DNA of 64,000 nucleotides, taken from contig JAJYEX010000001.1 in NCBI GenBank assembly GCA_021785515.1, forward strand, positions 310,001 to 374,000, in the 5' to 3' direction. Numbering within the stretch: position 1 is the first letter of the stretch; every line of letters begins with the position of its first letter. The stretch comes from Pseudomonadota bacterium (GTDB taxonomy: Bacteria > Pseudomonadota > Gammaproteobacteria > Acidiferrobacterales > UBA6901). Shown piece by piece: positions 48,087 to 59,124 of the stretch. Below the pieces are notes generated by a model. That model was not told the DNA's origin and made no database searches. It saw nothing but the letters and a program-made list of their open reading frames with translations. The translations under genes and the position numbers were made by a program.

Positions 48087-49048
48087 ACCGCAGGACCCTG
48101 CCTGGATTAGGGATGCGCCCGGACAAACGGGCGCCACCGTTGGGCAGCGCCGGATTACGGAACGGCTTGCTGCCAGCCGGGGTACCGTGCCGGAATTCCG
48201 ATCACCTATGCCGTGAGATCCGAAACGTCGGCACGCGTCTGCCCCAGCTTAGGGTCATTCGCCCGGCCGCGATGCAGGCGCTGCCCGGATCAGAAACTAC
48301 CGGATATGGCTGCCTGTATGAGAAACCCGCCTACAGTCCGGACTACTTGTCGTAATAATTCGCGTACGCCACGCGCCAAACTGCTGCCCGCGTCAGTGTC
48401 TGCGCACCGGGAAACGGCCATGGCCCCGGGGCGGCACAGACGGGGCCCAACCGGTACGAGGTTGTTTCGGAGCCCGCGACATTTCCTAAACACCGCGCCA
48501 TTGTGCTAGTGTCAAGCGCTGGAAACCCGCCGGCTTGCTTGCTGGGAAGCTGGGATGCCTTGCCACCCTGGTTAAGGTCTCGGCGCCAGGGGCAGATGGG
48601 TGGTTTCGGGATTGCCGGACGCGGCGCACCGCGTCCCGGATCACCGGAGTTGCTGACGGGGGATTTTTGAGTGGCCGTGTATGGTTACAATAACAGCAGG
48701 TAATTATGGTGGTCCTTCCGGTCACCGCGCAGGCACGCGACCAGCATTGACAGGACAACACGCACAGGCCGGCGCATCGGGGATAGAAGGGATCAGGCTC
48801 TTCCGTAGCACAGCAGCTATTCGGACTACCCTCCCGCACTCAGATTTGAGCCTGGCCGATCGGATGAAGCAACCCGCACCTTGCCGGCGTGCGCAGCAGC
48901 TACGTCGAGGAAACCATGCGGGATTCGGGGCACAATTCGGCAGCATGCCAAAGTTCCGGATAGACGCAGACACCCGTCCAGGGGCGGTAGCTGCGCCCAG
49001 AAAATGACCGCCAGCCGGTCCACCAAAACGCATCCGGCGACGCCCTGC
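48087..49048. other. Stretch of ~960 bases without a recognisable gene between hpf and hprK
   Basis: In related gene clusters ptsN (EIIA-Ntr) usually lies between hpf and hprK. Here I looked in all frames for its diagnostic active-site region (a GIAIPH-like motif) and found nothing similar. The open frames present are short, overlap each other on both strands and are rich in Arg, Pro and Ala with no clear ribosome-binding sites. No hairpin with a T-run was obvious. It may be a degraded gene or a long regulatory region for hprK. Confidence 0.6.
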
Positions 49049-49999
49049 ATGACCACGATCCTCACGGCTAACGGCTTGTTCGATGCCCAGCACAAGACTT
49101 TAAAGCTCAAGTGGCTATCGGGGCTGGCGGGCCAAGACCGGCTGCTGGAACCGGCCACTGCAAAGTTTCCCGGTCTGGCCCTGGTTGGCCACCTCAATTT
49201 TGTCCACCCGAATCGCGTACAAATCCTCGGAAGCGCCGAGATGGACTACCTGCGCAAGCTTCAGCCACCGAAACGCCGCCAGGCGATCCATGACCTGTTC
49301 AATTGCAGCACAACCGCTGTGGTGGTCGTTGCCAATGGCGAAAAGGTGAGTGCGGACCTGCGCTCGGCGTCGGATTCCATGAAGCTGCCCCTGTTTTCTT
49401 CGCCGTTACCCAGCCCCAAGCTTATCGATCATCTGCAGCACTATCTCGCGGCGGCGCTGGCCGCCCATATCACGCTGCATGGAGTGTACCTGGAAGTCAT
49501 GGGGGTGGGAGTCCTGCTCACCGGGGAAAGCGGCATGGGCAAGAGCGAGCTCGCGTTGGAATTGCTCAGCCGCAATCACCGGCTCATCGCTGATGATTCA
49601 GTGGAATTTTTCCGGACCGGTCCGGACGTGCTGCTCGGCCGCAGCCCGGACATCCTGCGGGATTTTTTGGAGGTGCGGGGCCTCGGAATACTCAATGTCC
49701 GGGCCATGTTCGGCGAAACCGCGGTGCGCTCAGAAAAGACGCTGCGGCTCATCGTCCGCCTGGAACAGCTCAAGCGCCGACGCCTAGGCAACATAGACCG
49801 CCTGCAGGCGCAGCAGAAAACCCGACGCATTCTTGACGTCGATATTCCGGAGGTAGTGCTGTATGTTGCTCCTGGCAGAAACCTTGCGGTACTTTTAGAA
49901 GTCGCTACCCGCAACCATATTCTGCGCATGCGCGGAGTAAACCCCCTGGATGAAATCATGAAGCGGCAAGAAGCCGCCATGAATCAGACGGACAGATGA
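49049..49999 (+). CDS. hprK: HprK, HPr kinase/phosphorylase
   Basis: Bifunctional enzyme that phosphorylates and dephosphorylates Ser46 of HPr. From ATG 49049 (MTTILTANGLFDAQHK) it has 316 residues; the frame is open further upstream but without homology. The C-terminal kinase domain has THLHG-type catalytic His in ITLHGVYLEV (about 144), the P-loop GESGMGKS at 159-166, and the signature LEVRGLGILNVRAMFG. The target residue Ser46 is present in the HPr encoded 1.3 kb downstream. Confidence 0.95.
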   Translation: MTTILTANGLFDAQHKTLKLKWLSGLAGQDRLLEPATAKFPGLALVGHLNFVHPNRVQILGSAEMDYLRKLQPPKRRQAIHDLFNCSTTAVVVVANGEKVSADLRSASDSMKLPLFSSPLPSPKLIDHLQHYLAAALAAHITLHGVYLEVMGVGVLLTGESGMGKSELALELLSRNHRLIADDSVEFFRTGPDVLLGRSPDILRDFLEVRGLGILNVRAMFGETAVRSEKTLRLIVRLEQLKRRRLGNIDRLQAQQKTRRILDVDIPEVVLYVAPGRNLAVLLEVATRNHILRMRGVNPLDEIMKRQEAAMNQTDR

Positions 50000-50054
50000 A
50001 AACGTTTCCATCCACCGGGCATCCGCCGGCCGCCATACCAGGACAATGCCAGCC

Positions 50055-50909
50055 ATGACTTTCCTGATTGTCAGCGGACTATCTGGTTCCGGCAAGAGTA
50101 TCGCCCTGCAGGCACTGGAAGACATGGGCTTTTACTGCATCGACAACCTTCCGGCCGCCCTGCTGCCACATTTCGCCCGTCAACTCACTGAAACCGACCG
50201 CAATGAACTGCGCAACGCCGCAGTCGGCATCGACGCGCGCAACCACCGCTTCCTCGATGCCCTGCCCCAGGGGCTCAACCAGCTGAAATCCATTGGGCTC
50301 AGTTACCAGATCATATTTCTCGAAGCGGAGGAATCGGTTCTGGTGCGGCGCTTCAAGGCAACGCGCCGCAAGCATCCCCTTACCGGGGGAGGTGTCCCGC
50401 TGCTGGACGGAATCCGGCAGGAGAAAATCTTGCTCGAACCGCTGTCCGCCGACGCGACGCTACGGGTTGATACCACCCACACTACGCCCCACGAACTGCG
50501 CCATCTGGTGCATAACTTCGCGCACAGCGATAATACCGAAGGGATGACCTTGATGTTCGAGTCCTTTGGCTTCAAGAACGGGACTCCGCTGGATGCTGAC
50601 TTCGTTTTTGACGTGCGCTGCCTGCCGAATCCTTACTGGGAAGCGGATCTGCGCAAGCTGACAGGCCTCGACCGACCGGTCATGGAATTTCTTGAGCGGG
50701 ACACACGGGTGCAGGACATGGTTATGCAGCTGTGCAGCTTTCTCGAGAAGTGGCTTCCCAGCTTCGAGGCTGAACATCGCAGCTACATGACTATCGCGCT
50801 GGGCTGTACAGGTGGCCAGCACCGCTCGGTATACTTGGTTGGACGTTTGGCTGAACATTTTTCGCGCAAGGGCATAAAGGCACAGGTTCGACATCGGGAG
50901 TTGGCATGA
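50055..50909 (+). CDS. rapZ: RapZ (YvcJ family), RNase adaptor / P-loop ATPase
   Basis: In E. coli, RapZ binds glucosamine-6-phosphate and the sRNA GlmZ and directs RNase E to it. The protein has 284 residues from ATG 50055 (MTFLIVSGLSGSGKS); an ATG three codons earlier is possible. P-loop GLSGSGKS is at residues 8-15. The C-terminal part has the family motifs LMFESFGFKNGTPLDADFVFDVRCLPNP and GCTGGQHRSVYLVGRLA (in part). It overlaps the next gene by 4 bases (ATGA). Confidence 0.95.
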   Translation: MTFLIVSGLSGSGKSIALQALEDMGFYCIDNLPAALLPHFARQLTETDRNELRNAAVGIDARNHRFLDALPQGLNQLKSIGLSYQIIFLEAEESVLVRRFKATRRKHPLTGGGVPLLDGIRQEKILLEPLSADATLRVDTTHTTPHELRHLVHNFAHSDNTEGMTLMFESFGFKNGTPLDADFVFDVRCLPNPYWEADLRKLTGLDRPVMEFLERDTRVQDMVMQLCSFLEKWLPSFEAEHRSYMTIALGCTGGQHRSVYLVGRLAEHFSRKGIKAQVRHRELA

Positions 50910-51319
50910 TAGGTCTTCTGATTCTGGCTCAGACGGATTTCGGACTCGGCCTGCTCCGGTCTGCGGAACACGTTCTCGGCAACCTGCCTCCAGGTATTGA
51001 AACGCTGCCGGTTGACTACGAATTGCCACAGGAACAGCTGGAGCAGGCCATCCGCACGCGCATAGAAAATCTGGACCACGGGAACGGCGTACTGATTCTG
51101 GCTGATATTTACGGAGCCTCTCACACCAACACGGCCTGTCGCTTGCTGCGCAAGGGTCAGATCGAACTGATCAGCGGAGTCAATCTCCCCATGCTCATCC
51201 GGCTGCTGAATTACCGTGATCTGGACATGAGGGGTCTGGTTACAAAAGCCCTGACCGGTGGGCCGGAAGGCATCGTGTCGGCGCCAATACCCCTGCGCAA
51301 AGCGGAGCCAAACCGATGA
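50906..51319 (+). CDS. Mannose-type PTS EIIA-like protein lacking the phospho-accepting histidine
   Basis: A single EIIA-Man domain of 137 residues, part of a regulatory PTS with HPr and EI. The fold is clear: MIGLLILAQTDFGLGLLRSAEHVLG, then VLILADIYGASHTNTACRLL and LISGVNLPMLIRLLNYRD. In the family the active-site His lies in an ITHG-like motif at about residue 9-10; here the motif reads LAQTDFG with Gln9 at that place (codon CAG, one base from a His codon). Flanking sequence is well preserved, so it does not look like a decayed gene. It might act without phosphorylation, or by a different residue. The stop overlaps ptsH (ATGA). Confidence 0.88.
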   Translation: MIGLLILAQTDFGLGLLRSAEHVLGNLPPGIETLPVDYELPQEQLEQAIRTRIENLDHGNGVLILADIYGASHTNTACRLLRKGQIELISGVNLPMLIRLLNYRDLDMRGLVTKALTGGPEGIVSAPIPLRKAEPNR

Positions 51320-51585
51320 AGGAGGCTGCGGTAACAGTGATCAACAAGCTCGGCATGCATGCCCGCGCATCGGCCAAGTTTGTCAATCTGGCGTCACAGT
51401 TCCGCAGCGACATCACACTGGAACGAAACGGCCACCAGGCCAACGGCAAGAGCATTATGGGGATAATGATGCTTGCAGCCGGCAAGGGCAGCAGCCTGCG
51501 CCTGCGCGTAGAGGGTGCCGACGAGGATCAGGCGATGCATGCTTTGTGCGGCCTGATCGAAAACCGCTTTGGCGAGGACGAATAG
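51316..51585 (+). CDS. ptsH: HPr, phosphocarrier protein
   Basis: Central phosphocarrier of the PTS. The 89 residues carry the EI-phosphorylated His at position 15 (NKLGMHARASAKF) and the HprK-target Ser at position 46 (GKSIMGIMML), both at the standard numbers. This is an NPr/HPr-like protein of a regulatory PTS. The start overlaps the EIIA stop (ATGA), and EI follows after 6 bases. Confidence 0.96.
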   Translation: MKEAAVTVINKLGMHARASAKFVNLASQFRSDITLERNGHQANGKSIMGIMMLAAGKGSSLRLRVEGADEDQAMHALCGLIENRFGEDE

Positions 51586-51591
51586 AATCCC

Positions 51592-53331
51592 ATGCTCGTA
51601 CTGCACGGAACCGGCGTCAGCAGCGGAATTGCCATCGGCAAGGCCTACGTGCTGCATCGCGAACGGCCGGAGGTTCCGGAATATATCCTGCCAGAAAGTC
51701 TGATCGCTGATGAGATTGCGCGGTTCCTTACCGCGATCGATTCCGCCAGGAACCAGCTTGAACGCATTCGCAACGAGATTCCCAAATCCGCCCCTCCGGA
51801 AATCTCGAGCATCATTGACACGCACCTGCTTATCCTACATGACAAGATGATCTGCGAGACCCCGGTCGAGACCATGCGCACGCACCGGCGAAACGCGGAA
51901 TGGGCGCTTAGAACCCAGAGCGACGAACTGGCGGCAGTATTTGAGCAGATGGATGATCCATATCTGCGCAGCAAGAAGACCGACGTTGGCCAGGTCGTAG
52001 ACCGGATCTTGCGCAATCTGCTCGCGTCCACCGACGAAGAACACGAGCAGATCACGGATGCGCTCGACGGTCAGATCGTTGTCGCCAACGATCTCACGCC
52101 AGCAGACATCGTGCTGCTCAAACATACGCGTATCGCGGCATTCGTAACCAATCTCGGTGGCCCCATTTCGCATACAGCCATTCTGGCCCGCAGTCTCGAA
52201 ATTCCGGCCATTGTCGCGGTACATAATGCCACCCGCGCCATACGCAGCGGCGAGGAGCTGATCGTCGATGGCAAACTAGGTGTGCTGGTTGTTCTTCCGG
52301 AGCCGGACATTATCGCCGAATACCAGAGTCGGCAGAAGGACATAATCCAGCTCAAGCGGGAGCTCGATGCTATCAAGGCAAGTCGCTCAGAAACGCGCGA
52401 CGGCCGCACGATCACGCTCTACGCAAATATTGAACTTCCGGATGATGTCAAGGCGGTCACCAAGGTTGCCGCCCAGGGGATTGGACTGTACCGCACAGAA
52501 TTTCTTTTTATGAACCGCCCCGATCTGCCGGACGAAGAGGAACAATATCGCGCCTATGCGAAGGTCGTCAGGGCCGTTCCCGGAAAGCCTGTGACTATAC
52601 GCACTCTTGATCTCGGAGCGGACAAGCGCGCCGACGCAAATACCCGTCCCACGGACACTGTCACGGTTAATCCTGCTCTGGGTTTGCGCGCGGTGCGGCT
52701 GTGCCTGCAGGATACAAGCCTATTCCGGCCTCAGCTACGGGCCATCCTGCGGGCATCGGCCCTGGGCCAGGTCCGGATCATGATCCCCATGTTATCGAGT
52801 CTGGGGGAGATGTTTCGCGTGCTCGATCTTATCGAGGAGACCAAGGCCGATCTTGCCCGCCAGGGTCAACCATATGATGAGGAGGTGCAGGTCGGCGGCA
52901 TGATCGAAGTGCCGGCGGCGGCAGTATCTGCCGATTTGTTTGCGCCGCACCTGGATTTCTTTTCAATTGGAACAAACGACCTGATCCAGTATACCTTGGC
53001 AATCGACCGGGTCGACGAGGCGGTAAACTATCTTTATGACCCACTTCATCCGTCAGTACTGAGGCTGATTTCGACCACGATTCGGGCCGGCAAGGCGGCC
53101 GGCATCCCTGTGGCAATGTGCGGAGAAATGGCCGGCGACACCCGCTACACGCGTTTGCTTATGGGGCTTGGCCTTGATGAATTCAGCATGCATCCTTCCG
53201 CCCTGCTGGAGGTCAAAAGGGTAGTCCGCGACAGCGACCTGGTAGAACTAGAACGGTCTGCAGAACGCGTGCTCCGCGCCCGCGATACCGTCGAGCTCCA
53301 CGCGATTGTCGACAAGATGAATGAACACTGA
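51592..53331 (+). CDS. ptsI: PTS enzyme I, phosphoenolpyruvate-protein phosphotransferase
   Basis: Transfers phosphate from PEP to HPr. The 579 residues have the HPr-binding N-terminal part, the phosphohistidine His194 in GGPISHTAILAR, the PEP-binding GLYRTEFLFMNR, and the C-terminal PEP-utilising barrel with catalytic Cys510 in VAMCGEMAGD. There is no N-terminal GAF domain, so this is EI rather than the PtsP form. All active-site residues seen are intact. No sugar EIIB/EIIC gene is adjacent. Confidence 0.97.
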   Translation: MLVLHGTGVSSGIAIGKAYVLHRERPEVPEYILPESLIADEIARFLTAIDSARNQLERIRNEIPKSAPPEISSIIDTHLLILHDKMICETPVETMRTHRRNAEWALRTQSDELAAVFEQMDDPYLRSKKTDVGQVVDRILRNLLASTDEEHEQITDALDGQIVVANDLTPADIVLLKHTRIAAFVTNLGGPISHTAILARSLEIPAIVAVHNATRAIRSGEELIVDGKLGVLVVLPEPDIIAEYQSRQKDIIQLKRELDAIKASRSETRDGRTITLYANIELPDDVKAVTKVAAQGIGLYRTEFLFMNRPDLPDEEEQYRAYAKVVRAVPGKPVTIRTLDLGADKRADANTRPTDTVTVNPALGLRAVRLCLQDTSLFRPQLRAILRASALGQVRIMIPMLSSLGEMFRVLDLIEETKADLARQGQPYDEEVQVGGMIEVPAAAVSADLFAPHLDFFSIGTNDLIQYTLAIDRVDEAVNYLYDPLHPSVLRLISTTIRAGKAAGIPVAMCGEMAGDTRYTRLLMGLGLDEFSMHPSALLEVKRVVRDSDLVELERSAERVLRARDTVELHAIVDKMNEH

Positions 53332-53387: not shown

Positions 53388-53807
53388 TCAGCGCCGGCGG
53401 ATACCGCCCGGCAGATGCGGACCCATTTCTTCGAGCGCCCCCGATGAAGGCCGGACCGAAGGCTGGATAAATGAACGCCTGCTGTCGTCCACGATGGCAA
53501 GGAGCCGCCCCCGGTATCGATCCTTGTCCGCGGCAAAACCGTCATCCATCCTGGCCTGAAACGGTTCCTTCAGCAGCGATACGGCACTGATCTTCTTGAG
53601 CCGGTAGGGGCGCCAGAACGGCGGCTGGCGTCCGGAAGAGGAATAACCCCGAGTCTGGTACCCGTCGACCACAATCTCCCCGTTGCTGGCGGTATAGATG
53701 GCGTGCGGCTCGATCACGCGGATGTGGGTCTGGCCATGATAACGAATGGCCACGCAGCGCTTTTCCCGCACCGCAGCCGTAAGCACCTGAAGTACATTAG
53801 GAATCAT
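53388..53807 (-). CDS. Lone WYL-domain protein
   Basis: A 139-residue protein consisting mostly of one WYL-like ligand-sensing domain: VREKRCVAIRYHGQTHIRVIEPHAIYTASNGEIVVDGYQTRGYS-type sequence (key parts CVAIRYHG, IEPHAIY, GYQTRG), then FWRPYRLKKISAVSLL. Unlike most WYL proteins there is no DNA-binding HTH in front. The C-terminus is basic and serine/proline-rich. It lies between the PTS cluster and a flavoprotein gene, oriented away from both. Its ligand is unknown. Confidence 0.75.
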   Translation of the reverse strand: MIPNVLQVLTAAVREKRCVAIRYHGQTHIRVIEPHAIYTASNGEIVVDGYQTRGYSSSGRQPPFWRPYRLKKISAVSLLKEPFQARMDDGFAADKDRYRGRLLAIVDDSRRSFIQPSVRPSSGALEEMGPHLPGGIRRR

Positions 53808-56004: not shown

Positions 56005-57351
56005 CTAGGACCCAGCGAGGGTCATGTTCTCGATAAGAATGGACCCGGTGCGGATGTTCCCGCGCAGATCCACATCCCGGCCCACGGCGACCATATGGCG
56101 GAACATATCAAGCAGGTTCCCGGCGATGGTGATCTCTTCGACCGGATACTGGATTTGACCACCCTCCACCCAGAATCCTGCCGCACCTCGCGAATAGTCC
56201 CCGGTAACGGAATTGACACCGAAGCCAATCAGCTCAGTCACCAGCAGGCCGGTGTGCATGCGTGCGATCAGGTCCGGGAGATCGTCCGTTCCAGGTTGTA
56301 TGGTAAGGTTATGCACGCCTCCGGCGTTCCCCGTCGTTGTCATGTGAAGCTTGCGCGCCGAATACGAATCCAGCACGTAGCCCAGCAGACTGCCATCTCG
56401 CACGAGGTCGCGGTCACGCGTGGCGACTCCTTCATTATCAAATGGCGCGCTCCCTAGCGCCTTCCTGAGGTGCGGCCGCTCGTACAACCGGACCCACGGC
56501 GCGAAAACCGTCTTGCCCAGCTGGCCCAGCAAAAAGGACGCTTCGCGGTAGAGGTTGGCACCGCGCACAGCTCCGACAAAATGGGAAAGCAGGCTGGACG
56601 CCACGGGCGCTTCATACAGTACCGGCGTTTGGCGTGTCGACAGCTTGCGCGCCGAAAGCCTGCGCAGCGCACGTTCTGCAGCCCGACGCCCGACGGATTC
56701 CCTCGACTCCAGATCAGACGCATCGCGGGTCACCGAATACCAGTAGTCCCGTTGCATACCAGAGTCATCCTGCGCCACCACGGCACAGCTCAACCCATGC
56801 CGCGTCGAAGCAACCGCACCCATAAACCCGTTCGTATTGCCGTAAACCTCCAGACCTTCATGCGATGAAAGTGACGCGCCCTCGGAGTTGCGGATCCTCG
56901 GATCAGCTGCGCGCGCTGCCTGCTCGCACGCGGTCGCCACCTCAATGGCCTCATCAGCACCCGGATTCCACGGGTGGTGCAGATCGAGGTCCGGAATACT
57001 GTGGGCGAGAGATTCAGGATCGGCAAGCCCGGAACAATCATCAGCGGCCGTATGCCTTGCGATACTCGCCGCCGCCCGCACGGTATCACGGACGGCCTCT
57101 ATCCGCAGGTCAGAGGTGCTGGCTGATCCGCTCTGCTTACCAAAGTAGAGAGTGATGCCCAAACCCTTGTCGCGCGTATGCTCCACCGTCTCGACGACGC
57201 CGAGTCGCACGGTCACGGCCAAGCCCTGACTGACGCTCGCGCTCGCTTCAGCTGCCGTGGCACCCTGCCTGCGCGCCTCCGCAAGGACCTCGCCGACCAG
57301 CGCTTCCAACGTTCCCGCTATTGCGGCTACCGGCTTCGATTCTTCCGTCAT
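56005..57351 (-). CDS. pmbA: PmbA (TldE), subunit of the TldD/TldE metalloprotease
   Basis: Partner of TldD; the heterodimer cleaves and matures modified peptides (microcin B17) and degrades CcdA in E. coli. The 448 residues from ATG 57351 (MTEESKPVAAIAG) lack the HExxxH zinc motif, as expected for TldE. Typical parts are VRLGVVETVEHTRDKGLGITLYFGK and PGTDDLPDLIARMHTGLLVTELIGFGVN, then GDYSRGAAGFWVEGG. The frame extends upstream across a small gene but has no homology there. It follows orf83 by 7 bases. Confidence 0.95.
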   Translation of the reverse strand: MTEESKPVAAIAGTLEALVGEVLAEARRQGATAAEASASVSQGLAVTVRLGVVETVEHTRDKGLGITLYFGKQSGSASTSDLRIEAVRDTVRAAASIARHTAADDCSGLADPESLAHSIPDLDLHHPWNPGADEAIEVATACEQAARAADPRIRNSEGASLSSHEGLEVYGNTNGFMGAVASTRHGLSCAVVAQDDSGMQRDYWYSVTRDASDLESRESVGRRAAERALRRLSARKLSTRQTPVLYEAPVASSLLSHFVGAVRGANLYREASFLLGQLGKTVFAPWVRLYERPHLRKALGSAPFDNEGVATRDRDLVRDGSLLGYVLDSYSARKLHMTTTGNAGGVHNLTIQPGTDDLPDLIARMHTGLLVTELIGFGVNSVTGDYSRGAAGFWVEGGQIQYPVEEITIAGNLLDMFRHMVAVGRDVDLRGNIRTGSILIENMTLAGS

Positions 57352-57358
57352 CCGAGCC

Positions 57359-57610
57359 TTAACCAGAATGCTTGTTGATGGCACTGCGGTTTCCCCAGTG
57401 CCCGATATTGTCGACCTCGACTCCAACCCACCAGAGGTCACCGATGCTGTCGTGGCTGTGACCGCCGACGATGTGCTGTCCCTGGCCAAGAACGATGTGG
57501 ACCAGATGGGCACGGGCCTCTCCGATATGTCGATACACATGCCACTGCACCACGTTTCCCTGACCAACCTCGGGCAAGGGCCGTTCTTCGTTCAGAAACT
57601 GGTCATTCAT
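57359..57610 (-). CDS. orf83: small protein between tldD and pmbA, unknown
   Basis: An 83-codon frame on the same strand as tldD and pmbA, starting at ATG 57610 with a perfect AGGAGG Shine-Dalgarno 8 bases upstream and ending 7 bases before the pmbA ATG, with an AAGG box for pmbA at its stop. No domain is recognised. The N-terminal third is acidic (NDQFLNEERPLPEVGQG); the rest is rich in Gly, His, Ser, Asn and Trp (for example IVGGHSHDSIGDLWW and GHWGNRSAINKHSG), with 9 His and 4 Trp. In related bacteria a DUF615 gene (darP) often lies in this region, but this sequence does not resemble it. TldD/TldE substrates include modified peptides, so a substrate role is conceivable but is inference. 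Confidence 0.65.
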   Translation of the reverse strand: MNDQFLNEERPLPEVGQGNVVQWHVYRHIGEARAHLVHIVLGQGQHIVGGHSHDSIGDLWWVGVEVDNIGHWGNRSAINKHSG

Positions 57611-57618
57611 GACACGTC

Positions 57619-57624
57619 CCTCCT
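57619..57624 (-). promoter_or_regulatory. Consensus Shine-Dalgarno of orf83
   Basis: AGGAGG on the minus strand, exactly 8 bases before the ATG at 57610. This decides the start of the small gene and is stronger than the ribosome-binding sites of its neighbours tldD and pmbA. Confidence 0.75.
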
Positions 57625-57675
57625 GCATTCATGGCCGAGTCAAGTCGCGCGCCGCCTGATTTTGTTGAGAGCCCA

Positions 57676-59124
57676 TCAGCTTTCATGTGTTCCGCCCACT
57701 GTTAGGCCATCAACGAGCAGGGTCGGCTGACCCACCCCGACCGGTATACTCTGGCCCTCCTTGCCACAAGTTCCCACACCGGAATCGAGCTGGATGTCGG
57801 AGCCGACGCGCGTTACCCGCGTCAGTACATCGGGACCATTCCCGATAAGCGTCGCCCCCCTTACCGGCCGCGTAATCCTGCCATTCTCAATCAGATAGGC
57901 TTCGCTCGTGGAGAATACGAACTTCCCCGACGTGATATCGACCTGCCCGCCGCCGAAATTGACGGCGTACAGCCCCTTGTCCACCGATTCGATGATTTCA
58001 CGGGGATCGTGCCTGCCGGCCAGCATGAAAGTATTGGTCATGCGCGGCATCGGAATATGAGCGTAAGATTCGCGTCGTCCGTTACCGGTTGGCGCCATTC
58101 CCATCAGGCGGGCATTCAGCAGATCCTGGAGGTAACACCTGAGGATTCCCTTTTCTATCAGCACGGTCTGCTGCGTTGGAGTTCCCTCGTCATCCACGCT
58201 GAGCGACCCGCGGCGACCCGGCAAACTGCCATCATCCACCACCGTGCATTCCGCTGACGCCACACGCTCGCCAATTCGCCCTGAGAATGCCGAGGTACCC
58301 TTACGGTTAAAGTCACCCTCCAGACCGTGACCAATCGCCTCGTGCAGCAGTATGCCCGGCCACCCCGGTCCCAGAACAACTTTCATGGTTCCGGCCGGGG
58401 CGGGACCCGCATCGAGGTTCACCACGGCCTGTCGCACGGCTTCGCGCGCATAAGTCTCGGCTGCCCCCATGCTTATGAAATCGTGATAGCTAAAGCGTCC
58501 ACCACCCCCATGACTGCCCTGCTCCCGACGGCCACCCTGCTCCACGATCACTGTTACGTTCAACCGCACCAGCGGTCTGACGTCCGCCGCCAGCACCCCG
58601 TCGCTGCGCATCAACAGGACTATCTCCTGAACTCCGGACAGGCTGGCCATCACCTGCTTTACGCGCCCATCCTGGCGACGCGCCTCCGCTTCCACCTGCT
58701 CCAACAGGCGGACCTTGTCCCCGTCCTCGAGGCTCTCGAGGGGGTCGAGCGGTTGGTACAACTCGTGCACCGGACTGGGATGCCATATCACCGGCACTGC
58801 CGGACCTCCGCCACGATGCGCGATCGCACGCGCCGCCGTGGCAGCCTCGATCAGGGCCGGGAACATGATCTCGTCAGAATAGGCAAACCCCGTCTTTTCC
58901 CCGCTAACGGCGCGTACACCCACACCCTGCTCGATATTGTGGCTGCCGGTTTTGACCTGCCCCTCCTCCAGGGTCCAGCTCTCGTGTCGGCTGTACTGGA
59001 AATAGAGGTCAGCATAATCGAGGCGATAACCGAGAAGCGCCCCCATAAGGCGTTCAATCTCGGTGTCGCCAATACCGGCGGGCTCAAGCAAGGCGCGACG
59101 CGCCTGGTTCAGCAGGGCGCTCAC
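57676..59124 (-). CDS. tldD: TldD, zinc metalloprotease of the TldD/TldE pair
   Basis: Catalytic subunit of the TldD/TldE peptidase. The 482 residues contain the zinc motif HEAIGH at 261-266 within [14 protein letters not shown], the conserved [11 protein letters not shown] in the first half and the [26 protein letters not shown] and [23 protein letters not shown] segments (in part) near the end. It overlaps the nitrilase stop by 4 bases and is separated from orf83 by 65 bases. Confidence 0.96.

Follow-up and report, generated by a model that had tools for sequence, protein, structure and literature searches.

An EIIA of the mannose family that lacks the canonical phospho-acceptor histidine and may use another in the same active site

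Can a mannose-type EIIA without its phospho-acceptor histidine still take phosphate from HPr? The acceptor histidine has long been treated as a defining residue of a PTS protein, and a scan for His10 alone would call the EIIA proteins considered here dead. One of them is encoded in the window, by which we mean the whole stretch of 64,000 nucleotides analysed. Its gene (plus strand, 50906–51319) starts with ATG, overlaps rapZ and ptsH by 4 bases each, and specifies an EIIA-Man-like protein of 137 amino acids. Codon 9 (50930–50932) is CAG, which puts Gln9 in the column of the canonical acceptor His10; an earlier reading of this DNA from its letters (the sequence-only reading) had noted as much, and alignment with relatives confirms it. 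Because four further genomes of the same genus (L035, L050, L054 and L056) also have Gln9, the residue is real, and a sequencing error at this codon is ruled out. The sequence-only reading took this EIIA to be apparently unable to receive phosphate in the usual way, and suggested either a phosphate-independent sensor or binding partner or a chain that stops at HPr. We do not favour that conclusion, which the comparison of relatives suggests is probably wrong. Alignment with His10-bearing relatives brings out a second change, absent from that reading: codon 73 (51122–51124) is CAC, giving His73 where canonical relatives have Pro73, and we propose this histidine as a relocated phospho-acceptor.

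The assignment to the family is straightforward. The protein matches the PF03610 profile (E=6.1e-14) with 52.6 bits, above the curated cut-off of 21.4, and falls below the cut-offs of two NCBIfam models for the IIA component of mannose or galactosamine permeases, TIGR00824 (46.0 vs 98.35) and NF040761 (61.2 vs 130). An AF2 model of the monomer (pLDDT 89.1) keeps the strand at residues 62–66 and the helix at 72–78, and its best Foldseek matches are EIIA-Man structures (1pdo, TM 0.79, 2.2 Å). The genome is 99.92% complete and has a single EIIA-Man by PF03610; the other EIIA that the sequence-only reading had proposed to look for did not turn up, a genome-wide search for PtsN (PF00359) finding none. 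We regard the protein as a mannose-family EIIA with a probable regulatory role, and this, taken together with a migrated acceptor, is the best explanation that we can offer and a reasonably probable one.

The rest of the active site is in place. From Asp67 to Asn75 canonical proteins follow the pattern D-x-[YF]-G-x-[TS]-P-x-N, and the window protein has D-I-Y-G-A-S-H-T-N. Asp67 (codon at 51104–51106) is invariant in proteins of both the His10 and the His73 type, Ser72 (51119–51121; Ser or Thr in the alignment), at the N-terminal end of helix C, is the residue that would position the phosphate, and Asn75 is present as well. In a published EIIA-Man structure the imidazole of His10 is surrounded by Gly71, Ser72 and Pro73; Asp67 orients and activates His10, and Ser72, at the N-terminus of helix C, holds the phosphate with its hydroxyl and amide (PMC7587183). 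Given this role of Ser72, and the helix at 72–78 in the model, His73 is predicted to lie in the first turn of the helix that binds the phosphate. In published structures of the family, position 73 lines the His10 pocket. His15 of HPr also immediately precedes a helix (PMC8509676). More than one contact has been remodelled, since the residue after the lost histidine (Gly11 in the described structures), the Thr before His10 and the Thr before Asp67 have changed too. Elsewhere in the protein, helix 1 carries a His22 (50969–50971) that is found in 95% of the His73 group vs 19% of canonical proteins.

How the two positions vary was followed in the order Acidiferrobacterales (Acidiferrobacter, Sulfuricaulis, Muproteobacteria). 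An EIIA-Man protein was found in 52 of its 57 genomes; His73 is present in 51 of these 52, and His10 is absent from 48. A wider alignment took in 210 non-redundant gammaproteobacterial sequences, drawn from this order, from its class and from named GTDB loci. The residues at positions 9 and 73 were His/Pro in 149, non-His/His in 54, His/His in four (L004, L013, L039 and L098), and non-His/Pro, His/Gln and His/Ala in one each. His10 is thus absent from 54/58 proteins with His73 vs 1/152 without it, counts that come from related sequences and are not independent events. When 369 class genomes and 398 phylum genomes were scanned for the pattern, no His73 EIIA came up beyond those named in this report. 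Besides the window's own, five other matches among the 398 phylum genomes were unrelated or due to chance. In one family with His73 (f64) residue 69 of the motif is Arg or His, for which reason the family was recovered by searching with alignments.

Constraint has changed places along with the residues. On a tree of EI, RapZ and HprK, at least 11 changes in the His73 clade have given position 9 nine different residues (Q, E, Y, H, F, P, T, D and L), and position 73 does not change at all; in His10-type relatives the constraint on the two positions is the opposite. Seven columns of the clade show zero changes: D67, G70, H73, N75, G91, P95 and M96. That His73 is found in 100% of the His73 group is by construction, the group being defined by it; the non-circular figures are the 51/52 of the order and the constancy of position 73 throughout a clade that was delimited with other genes. 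Both histidine codons are in use (CAC in 37 genes, CAT in 17), so the residue has been held although the codon varies. The sequence-only reading had named another conserved histidine in the active site as what would overturn it. At the level of sequence there is one: within the clade His73 never varies, its position belongs to the His10 pocket of published structures, and its presence coincides almost perfectly with the loss of His10. Since the new histidine is as invariant as the old one and would occupy the same pocket, it is probable that the active residue has moved and that the protein is not dead.

A relocated acceptor needs its donors, and here the sequence-only reading, which called the neighbours intact, holds up: what stands of it is the loss of the histidine and the state of the neighbours, and what we would set aside is the inability to accept phosphate. 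All four neighbours lie on the plus strand. HPr (ptsH, 51316–51585; PF00381 E=3.4e-30) has His15 and Ser46, and Enzyme I (ptsI, 51592–53331; above the TIGR01417 cut-off) has His194 and Cys510. RapZ (50046–50909) scores above the cut-off of NF003828. HPr kinase/phosphorylase (49049–49999, its start set at the second in-frame Met of a longer ORF, 48881–49999) scores above that of TIGR00679 and has the P-loop GESGMGKS. Wherever HPr was found at a His73 locus it keeps the His15 motif, and the His and Cys motifs of EI are present wherever those parts of EI were covered. HPr columns that differ between the groups are mostly away from His15 or conservative (Met/Leu14, Ser/Ala19, Ile/Val50), and this column comparison gave no clear compensating HPr change accompanying His73.

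In several other Acidiferrobacterales families ptsN sits in the cluster between rpoN and rapZ. In the window the gap of about 0.96 kb between hpf and hprK (48087–49048) has no ptsN gene, and tblastn gave no convincing remnant there; the sole strong tblastn match was rejected, since the query ORF behind it was not part of the ptsN reading and the match falls in the rpoN-hpf region on the other strand. PtsN is absent genome-wide from all members examined of the window's family (f1) and of its sister family f4, which includes a one-contig genome (G023), and among the EIIA classes searched (EIIA-Man and PtsN) the His73 protein is the only one in these two families. Mannose-type EIIB (PF03830) was found in 0/57 Acidiferrobacterales genomes and in three genomes that served as a control. 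As regards the traits of a regulatory, permease-free PTS, the window has EI and HPr with their active-site residues and has no mannose-type EIIB. The operon contains no known RNA at Rfam gathering thresholds. Just downstream of ptsI the minus strand has a short ORF that matches a WYL domain (53391–53807), and further on there are two neighbouring minus-strand genes of the PmbA/TldD metallopeptidase family (56008–59124).

Taken together, the alignments suggest that the phospho-acceptor moved within one active site, from position 10 to position 73, which on balance we hold to be probable. Loss of the old histidine, fixation of a histidine at an adjoining active-site position and the existence of forms with both are what such a migration would be expected to leave behind, and all three are seen in these alignments.

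The main rival, which we think unlikely though far from negligible, is that the protein takes no phosphate, binds HPr and reads whether it is phosphorylated at His15, phosphorylated at Ser46 or free. His73 would then be a binding or structural residue that might, for example, touch the HPr phosphate without accepting it. The replacement of His10 by many different residues suits such a role, as does the persistence of HprK and of Ser46 in HPr, and with no mannose-type EIIB in the order there is no proven need for onward transfer. Left unexplained are the loss of His10 almost only where there is a histidine at 73, the absolute fixation of position 73 thereafter, and the conservation of Asp67 and Ser/Thr72, which are residues of phosphoryl transfer. 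With a sensor, moreover, f1 and f4 would have no acceptor for P-His-HPr among the EIIA classes searched.

Decay classically shows itself in a lost catalytic residue, and the proteins might be pseudo-functional remnants drifting after their function was lost. An example of what that could look like is the lone sequence with neither His9 nor His73, from genome G088 (L073), whose Asn75 has become Arg and whose gene lies beside rapZ without an adjoining HPr or EI gene. This EIIA-Man gene (L073/L304, 9004–9450, minus strand; Gln9 and Pro73) has its HPr gene on another contig. It looks like real decay and offers a useful contrast to the His73 proteins. For the latter, retention of the gene in 52 of the 57 genomes of the order, its overlaps with its neighbours and seven unchanged columns, mostly in the active site, are the reverse of drift. 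The pattern of conservation largely refutes decay, to which we give very little credence.

His73 might also be neutral and have merely travelled with its lineage from an ancestor that happened to have both changes. As regards origins and INTERMEDIATES, His73 was found in Acidiferrobacterales, in families f116 (G165, G281, G379) and f64 (G113, G249, G353), and in G163. An EIIA-only tree is too short to resolve origins, for which reason the tree of EI, RapZ and HprK was used, and supported contrasts were too few for a pair test on the tree. The EI-based tree joins the order, f116 and f64 with modest support (84), so a single origin for these three is likely; the sequences are phylogenetically dependent, and the His73 group outside G163 probably has one origin. 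G163, a member of the class outside the order with a genome of 1.5 Mb, has Gln9/His73. The nearest EIIA to its own is that of G279 (His9/Gln73), and its EI clusters with that of G279, far from the main His73 clade. In G163 (L186, 3153–5662, minus strand) a fused HPr-EI (689-codon ORF) directly follows the EIIA, and G279 (L305) has the same HPr-EI fusion together with its His9/Gln73 EIIA. On these sequences we take G163 to be a second origin of the same pair of changes.

Most of the His73 group does share ancestry, as neutral hitch-hiking would have it. Hitch-hiking is hard to reconcile with the same pair in a second lineage, with the continuing change at position 9 and none at 73, and with the proteins that have both histidines. 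Nor was any clade member found that had lost His73 and not regained His10; the only one without His73, G050, has His10. We consider hitch-hiking highly improbable. G050 (L003, family f7) has a canonical His10/Pro73 EIIA on a long branch together with a RapZ and HPr typical of f7, so the history of His73 is not a clean one-way series; its EIIA would be a reversal or a gene replacement. An acceptor elsewhere, the least credible alternative of all, could be His22, which is common in the group, but we rejected it because it undergoes three changes on the tree, occurs in His10-type proteins as well and is carried away from the end of strand 1 by helix 1, or it could be the residue at position 9 (Gln, Glu, Asp or Tyr), which in some members is Phe, Leu or Pro.

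If the phospho-acceptor did migrate, the histidine at the end of strand 1 (now Gln9) would have been succeeded by one in the first turn of helix C (formerly Pro73). Phosphate would pass from PEP to the histidine of EI and from EI to His15 of HPr. HPr would dock on EIIA as usual, through the conserved Asn75, Gly91 and Asn93 (75, 94 and 96 in the described structures), and His73 would take the phosphate beside Ser/Thr72 and the helix, possibly with the assistance of Asp67. The balance of P~EIIA and EIIA would then be a regulatory output, as proposed for PtsM of Brucella, and would not feed a sugar permease, because the order has no mannose-type EIIB. We lean towards a fuller version of this history, in which the acceptor histidine moved at least two times by way of a stage with both histidines, acts at the beginning of a helix, similarly to His15 in HPr, and, in part of the Acidiferrobacterales, belongs to the only EIIA found to end the phosphorelay.

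Should His73 be the acceptor, a member of a phosphorelay has moved its catalytic residue while the relay kept running, and living relatives still show both residues. A question about how active sites evolve could then be put to the test with just three small soluble proteins. For annotation, an EIIA described as lacking its catalytic histidine needs a structural check and not one based on a single column.

Migration of an active-site residue within a conserved fold is already known in other families, for example from PMC2628886 and PMC551604, where, as proposed for the His73 EIIA, a residue elsewhere in the pocket was used to rebuild an active site. For PTS EIIA we found no report of it in the open-access literature (PMC), subscription papers being mostly outside the search and an earlier description possible. 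The gene order rpoN-hpf-hprK-rapZ-EIIA-ptsH-ptsI is that of the rpoN-linked regulatory PTS cluster of Proteobacteria (Comas et al. 2008, PMC2405797), from which the window cluster differs in that ptsN is missing in the window's family and the EIIA is of the His73 type. The EIIA of E. coli ManX (1pdo; His10, Asp67, Ser72, Pro73) has the fold of the window protein in common and is like it in Asp67, Ser/Thr72 and Asn75, as well as in the Gly and Asn at the interface with HPr. The window protein departs from ManX in His10 to Gln, Gly11 to Thr and Pro73 to His, and has no EIIB partner in the order. Another parallel is PtsM of Brucella melitensis, an EIIA-Man-like protein that is phosphorylated in vitro via P-His-NPr and binds SucA (PMC2937029). 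Like the window EIIA it is a stand-alone regulatory EIIA-Man, clustered with hprK and an HPr gene and without a permease (PMC2937029). Its predicted phosphorylation site is the canonical His9, whereas the window protein has Gln at that position and His73 as its candidate.
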